Assembly (NCBI GenBank): GCA_025059045.1 | Contig: JANXEA010000013.1 | Span: forward strand, 1 to 33,895 | Length of the DNA stretch: 33,895 nucleotides | Direction: 5' to 3' | Source: Candidatus Bathyarchaeota archaeon | GTDB lineage: Archaea > Thermoproteota > Bathyarchaeia > Bathyarchaeales > DTEX01 | In this document: one piece after another, positions 7,645-8,103 of the stretch | How the letters are laid out: every line of letters begins with the position of its first letter | Position numbering within the stretch: the first letter of the stretch is position 1 | The notes under the pieces: model-generated | Told to the model about the DNA's origin: nothing | Databases searched by the model: none | What the model saw: only the letters and a program-made list of their open reading frames with translations | Program-made: the position numbers and the translations under genes

Positions 7645-7882
7645 TGGTGGGGCCGGCCGGATTTGAACCGACGGCCTCTGCCCAGATACAAGGCCTTATT
7701 TCTGGCTTAAGCCTTGTATCCTACGGGTTTCTTCAAAGCTCCAGAACTTCTTCATCCCATTCTGGTCCGCAAACCCATTCATGCTTCTGGAGCCCTTAAC
7801 GGCTGCTTTGTTCGCATCAGCTGTCGTCATACCTTTCCAGCAACCCGGCTGAAACAGCCGGATGTTACTAGACTACGGCCCC
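7645..7882 (-). tRNA. tRNA-like RNA gene with about 150 nt of internal insert (identity uncertain)
   Basis: Read on the minus strand, GGGGCCG (7882-7876) pairs perfectly with CGGCCCC (7655-7649), followed by discriminator A and an encoded CCA. A full T-arm (GTCGG TTCAAAT CCGGC, 7672-7656) and a 5' TAGTCTAG D-arm start are present. The span is 238 nt rather than about 76-88, so it is either a multi-intron tRNA or another tRNA-capped RNA. One tRNA reading has anticodon stem CAAGG (7716-7712)/CCTTG (7693-7689), loop CTTAAG (anticodon UAA, Leu), a short intron and a long variable arm, with a large D-loop intron whose bulge-helix-bulge could use ATCC (7863-7860)/GGAT (7721-7718). That product would lack G18-G19, so the identity is doubtful. 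The insert has further perfect hairpins and a 44-codon ORF (7830-7696). A TATA box at the right distance supports transcription. Confidence 0.6.
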
Positions 7883-7908
7883 AGCAGCTAAATCTTTTCC
7901 AGAAGATG

Positions 7909-7922
7909 TGGATATATGCGTT
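7909..7922 (-). promoter_or_regulatory. Promoter of the tRNA-like gene
   Basis: Minus strand CGCATATATCC is centred near 7914. Transcription would begin near 7888, five or six bases before the acceptor stem, as expected for a tRNA gene. Confidence 0.6.
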
Positions 7923-7948
7923 ACGCTTTCCTTTAATCTGCGAGCGAA

Positions 7949-7960
7949 AAGTTAATGAAT
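7949..7960 (+). promoter_or_regulatory. Probable 5S rRNA promoter
   Basis: AAGTTAATGAAT is centred near 7955, about 26 bases before the 5S gene. It lies back to back with the promoter of the tRNA-like gene in a 98-base gap. Confidence 0.4.
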
Positions 7961-7980
7961 GCCCTTGTCCAAGACTATCC

Positions 7981-8103
7981 GGGTTGCCGGCCATAGGGCG
8001 CGGGAACCACCCGATCCCATTCCGAACTCGGAAGTTAAACCGCGCTCCGTCTCCGGTGGTAGTGCAGTCTTCGGCTGCGCGAAGCCGGAGAAGCTGGCAA
8101 CCC
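7981..8103 (+). rRNA. 5S ribosomal RNA
   Basis: About 123 nt. The ends GGGTTGCC (7981-7988) and GGCAACCC (8096-8103) form helix I. The conserved 5S core is present: CCCGATCCCATTCCGAAC followed by CGGAAGTTAAACC, then the GGTGGTAGTGC loop E/helix IV region. No 16S or 23S sequence lies nearby, so this 5S is unlinked, as in many TACK archaea. It ends 9 bases from the stop of the convergent GH127 gene, and no clear U-run terminator follows. Confidence 0.93.

Follow-up and report, generated by a model that had tools for sequence, protein, structure and literature searches.

Predicted tRNA-Trp(CCA) gene with four introns, one of them a candidate methylation guide, in a bathyarchaeon

Identity and structure of the gene

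The feature at positions 7645-7882 on the minus strand of the window (the whole stretch of archaeal DNA analysed, 33,895 nt) is almost certainly a bathyarchaeal tRNA-Trp(CCA) gene with four archaeal introns of 31, 27, 58 and 45 nt, as judged from its own sequence and from its homologues. This four-intron tRNA-Trp gene is neither a tmRNA gene nor a coding sequence for a peptide.

The tRNA ends of the gene, namely a perfect 7-bp acceptor stem, the T-arm and an encoded CCA, bracket 161 inserted nucleotides. These elements had already been described by a reader of the sequence alone, together with a TATA-like element and several pairings within the insert, and the coordinates given for all of them are correct; among the identities considered there, the tRNA with multiple, large introns agrees with the spliced form and with the homologues, both of which are Trp(CCA). 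The predicted splice sites lie after mature positions 17, 28, 37 and 43 (Table 1). The spliced product is 77 nt long, with the CCA encoded, and is identified by ARAGORN as tRNA-Trp(CCA), with the anticodon CCA in the cloverleaf; the unspliced gene gives no call, and zero tRNAs are reported by the same program on the window. The D-loop formed after splicing is UAGUAAGGUAU, which contains G18-G19; the sequence-only reading had these two residues missing from the spliced tRNA, which it took for a possible Leu form, an error that is removed by the correct splice sites.

Table 1. Features of the tRNA-Trp gene and its surroundings, with positions in the window
Feature	Positions	Strand	Basis or remark
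Exon 1 (mature 1-17): 5' strands of acceptor and D-stem, first part of D-loop	7866..7882	-	same layout in 70 homologues; Trp(CCA) call
Intron 1, 31 nt, D-loop, after position 17	7835..7865	-	BHB; missing in many homologues
Exon 2: G18-G19, D-stem 3' strand, positions 26-28	7823..7834	-	splicing and homologues
Intron 2, 27 nt, anticodon stem, 28/29	7796..7822	-	BHB; missing in many homologues
Exon 3: anticodon stem 29-31, loop with anticodon CCA, up to G37	7787..7795	-	splicing and homologues
Intron 3, 58 nt, canonical 37/38, putative box C/D-like guide intron	7729..7786	-	in 70/70 parsed homologues, found via intron-3 pattern or whole-gene BLAST
Guide-like element AUGGGUUUG, 5' of box D', able to pair with exon 4 and the 3' splice junction	7770..7778	-	N+5 predicts C39
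Box D'-like CGGA (CUGA in other homologues)	7766..7769	-	
Box C'-like GAUGAAGA	7749..7756	-	RAUGANGA in all
UUCUGGAGC, pairs with GCUCCAGAA around anticodon; possible C34 guide	7738..7746	-	adjacent terminal box D degenerate
Exon 4: ACCCGU, positions 38-43	7723..7728	-	splicing and homologues
Intron 4, 45 nt, variable loop, after position 43	7678..7722	-	BHB; missing in some homologues
Exon 5: AGGCC of the variable loop, T-arm, 3' strand of acceptor, A73 and the encoded CCA	7645..7677	-	splicing, genome search
TATA-like element, about 30 nt 5' of the tRNA	7912..7917	-	read from sequence
5S rRNA gene, divergent from the tRNA gene	7983..8102	+	Rfam RF00001, 82.4 bits

Each splice site of the window gene presents 3-nt bulges and the 4-bp central helix of the bulge-helix-bulge (BHB) motif. 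The central helix is fully paired (4/4) in intron 1, with CUAG/CUGG between bulges UA^A and AA^A, and in intron 2, with GACG/CGUU between bulges AC^A and AA^G. One mismatch (3/4) is present in the central helices of intron 3, CUCC/GAAG, and of intron 4, ACCC/GGGC; the latter has bulges GU^A and AG^A and an inner helix of 6/6 pairs, which corresponds to the previously noticed pairing GATACAAGGC/GCCTTGTATC and is conserved. Transposition of introns inside the genome was also considered and rejected, as introns 1, 2 and 4 gave chance-level matches alone (11-12 nt, E 0.15 or worse) when compared with other tRNA loci and their flanks.

Homologues and distribution of the introns

The feature is real, far beyond chance, because whole-gene homologues adjoin the 5S rRNA gene in many bathyarchaeal genomes, as found when 60 related genomes were searched with the DNA of the region; alignment of the homologues found by BLAST made insert-poor versions of the gene visible. 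Scanning public genomes with a sequence pattern gave 77 stretches, almost all of them with Bathyarchaeota in the title; those titled as bacteria (L096, L132 and L137) are chance matches, with no tRNA around the pattern. There were 75 distinct full sequences, including that of the window, and 70 of them were parsable by one rule. All 70, the window gene included, give exactly 73 nt plus ACCA after splicing and are called Trp(CCA) by ARAGORN, the ACCA being added to the homologues by script because the extracted stretches end short of it; the rule is a regular expression that assumes the exon edges, and does not force equal length after removal of any subset of inserts.

Scored as presence (1) or absence (0) at sites 1 to 4, the commonest intron pattern among the 70 is 0011 (39 sequences), followed by 1111 (12), 0010 (7), 1110 (6) and 1011 (3), while 1010, 0110 and 0111 occur once each. 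Sites 1, 2 and 4 are each empty in many of the parsed homologues; intron 3 is found in every one, in a set retrieved through the intron-3 pattern or by whole-gene BLAST. The minimal homologue, L041, has the form GGGGCCGTAGTCTAGCCAGGTATGACGACGGGCTCCAG-[65 nt]-ACCCGTAGGTCGCCGGTTCAAATCCGGTCGGCCCCA, a tRNA-Trp with a single intron at 37/38, and is matched directly by the Rfam tRNA model with 52.7 bits.

Pairing of the central helices exceeds that of shuffled controls at each site: out of four possible pairs, the means for real and shuffled sequences are 4.00 and 1.52 for intron 1, 3.95 and 1.37 for intron 2, 3.19 and 1.64 for intron 3, and 3.55 and 1.20 for intron 4. In introns 1, 2 and 4, the inner helix is found in 16, 17 and 30 versions and remains paired although both of its strands vary, as is clearest at the first pairs. 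Relatives thus conserve the BHB sites and give a normal tRNA on splicing, and the internal open reading frame is not conserved in them, which is the outcome that the sequence-only reading had proposed to look for in case the feature was an intron-rich tRNA. The exon/intron layout, the homologues without individual introns, the BHB pairing and the guide complementarity are established by sequence comparison. The multi-intron structure accounts for the tRNA-Trp being missed by standard scans (ARAGORN, Rfam tRNA) in such genomes.

Alternative identities

A heavily interrupted gene might be a pseudogene or a remnant of tRNA-Trp, as the earlier suggestion of a disrupted tRNA implied; this is very unlikely, and the reading fails because the exons are conserved, the length is kept on splicing and the gene is the sole tRNA-Trp candidate found. 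The exons are fully paired, splicing restores the exact length and conservation is order-wide. In a genome that is 98% complete, neither a search with the spliced sequence nor the typing of other tRNA candidates found a second tRNA-Trp.

Like a bacterial tmRNA, the feature has tRNA-like ends that enclose extra sequence, with an ORF between them, and a permissive Rfam scan of the window gives a weak tmRNA match; the feature is nevertheless extremely unlikely to be a tmRNA-like archaeal RNA whose ORF encodes a tag. The match scores 18.3 bits where the cut-off is 47, and the sole match in the window at Rfam gathering scores is the 5S rRNA. SmpB was not found in the genome, where a PF01668 search gave no match and bacterial controls were positive. 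The 44-codon ORF, which begins in the tRNA D-stem, is present where the sequence-only reading placed it but is not conserved: in relatives, the frame from the same ATG is between 4 and 44 codons long or remains open, and the sequences are unrelated. Splicing would moreover yield an anticodon arm, and relatives that lack the inserts are plain tRNA-Trp. The resemblance to tmRNA is therefore refuted by the intron-poor homologues and by the non-conservation of the ORF; unlike in bacterial tmRNA, a conserved tag ORF and SmpB are absent here and the inserts are removable introns.

A tRNA-Leu(UAA) with multiple introns, also put forward earlier and favoured by a CTTAAG within intron 4, is next to impossible, as this motif lies in a variable-loop intron that is missing in some homologues and not conserved in sequence, the gene is Trp(CCA), and the suggested check for another tRNA-Leu(UAA) revealed a separate gene of this type at C13:145.4 kb. 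The latter locus (L151, G000:C13:145390-145660) has a CTTAAG anticodon loop, a type-II variable arm and an apparent insert in the D-loop, and was missed by ARAGORN.

Two other candidates were dropped. RNase P RNA was considered for the conserved internal motifs, and the genome has an ordinary copy of it (212.8 bits). A pseudoknotted new non-coding RNA, built on GCTCCAGAA/TTCTGGAGC and GGGTTT/AAACCC, was abandoned since the shortest homologues are tRNA-Trp; these pairings are guide-like pairings and BHB alternatives of the tRNA-Trp gene.

Intron 3 as a candidate methylation guide

Introns of archaeal tRNA-Trp contain a nested box C/D RNA that directs methylation of C34 and U39 (PMC4090602). Intron 3 of the window gene is probably an archaeal tRNA-Trp guide intron for 2'-O-methylation of C39. 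It contains a D'/C'-like kink-turn, in which D' is mainly CKGA and C' is RAUGANGA, and application of the N+5 rule to the element upstream of D' gives C39 in 70/70 homologues, with 8/9 pairs in 64 of these; conservation of the guide and boxes is partly imposed by the scan pattern, and the independent set found by BLAST agrees. The pairing GCTCCAGAA/TTCTGGAGC, reported in the sequence-only reading, is conserved and corresponds to the guide-like duplex of this intron. The GGGTT/AACCC pairing (7846-7842/7729-7725) reported with it has correct coordinates but lies outside the conserved structure, in which AAACCC pairs with the GGGTTT of intron 3 (7776-7771).

The same intron may perhaps also direct 2'-O-methylation of C34, which is uncertain because its terminal boxes C and D deviate from the canonical form. 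Box D is degenerate and no conserved box C was found within the intron, the AUGACGA match being located in an exon. The genome contains a fibrillarin gene. Intron 3 resembles the guide introns of tRNA-Trp(CCA) in Haloferax and other archaea in isotype, in the 37/38 position and in its complementarity to position 39 and the anticodon loop, and its 58 nt are near the published median of 65 nt (PMC4090602); it differs from the known guide intron in the degenerate terminal boxes C/D, in C39 instead of U39 and in the presence of three further introns.

Proposed splicing

We infer from the sequence that the window gene is transcribed, spliced in a certain order and methylated. A splicing endonuclease would cut the transcript at the BHB motifs, and the exons would be ligated to the 77-nt tRNA with release of the introns. 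Two paralogues of this enzyme (tRNA_int_endo, PF01974) are present in the genome; archaea with two-subunit splicing endonucleases, which tolerate relaxed motifs, have two such genes (PMC4090602). The central helix of intron 4 would occupy A38-C41, which would be needed also by the outer helix of intron 3 and by the anticodon stem, and introns 1 and 2 would take up both strands of the D-stem. The BHB motifs cannot all form together, so splicing is probably sequential. Tentatively, and at somewhat less than even odds, up to four BHB introns in the window gene, and five in the homologues L085 and L098, would compete for exon bases and be removed in a fixed order, coupled to an intron-borne methylation guide with a target that straddles the 3' splice site of that intron.

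Number of introns per gene

Three introns are the published maximum for an archaeal tRNA gene (PMC4033280, PMC8450103), and this number, given by reviews and by the paper on tRNAscan-SE 2.0, is exceeded in tRNA-Trp. L085 and L098 apparently contain five, after mature nucleotides 10, 29, 38, 46 and 60, and splice to tRNA-Trp(CCA), while L114 has four, at 29, 38, 46 and 60; all the central helices of these introns have 3-4 pairs of 4. The extra sites lie on the 5' side of the D-stem, at 45/46 and within the T-loop, and have no counterpart in the window. A literature search, with most subscription papers outside its scope, returned no relevant account of an archaeal tRNA gene interrupted four or five times; within this scope, the numbers are new and the highest for any archaeal tRNA gene.

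The window gene is similar to the multi-intron tRNA genes of Thermoproteales in having several BHB introns, non-canonical positions and an endonuclease of the two-subunit type, and differs from them, with their maximum of three, in its four introns and in the five of L085 and L098. The bathyarchaeal series, from one to five introns at mostly shared sites, provides useful data on intron gain and loss and on ordered splicing.

Some minor features of these genes were also recorded. Intron sites 10 and 46 of L085 and L098 have a common central helix, CCGU/GCGG; the 3' end of L085 is CCACTT and not CCACCA; L130, like L114, is a bathyarchaeal tRNA-Trp with introns at other sites.

Neighbourhood and other tRNA loci

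The 5S rRNA and tRNA-Trp genes are divergent also in L036 and L041; in the window, they share a 100-bp intergenic region (7883-7982). Elsewhere in the genome, an isolated sequence resembling a tRNA 3' half, with T-arm and acceptor strand and no evident 5' half (L154, G000:C13:129210-129460), is possibly another multi-intron or split tRNA. Finally, a locus at G000:C10:63700-64050 (L149) is called tRNA-Pyl(CUA) by ARAGORN; a tRNA-Arg(UCU) interrupted by a canonical intron is an equally possible reading.
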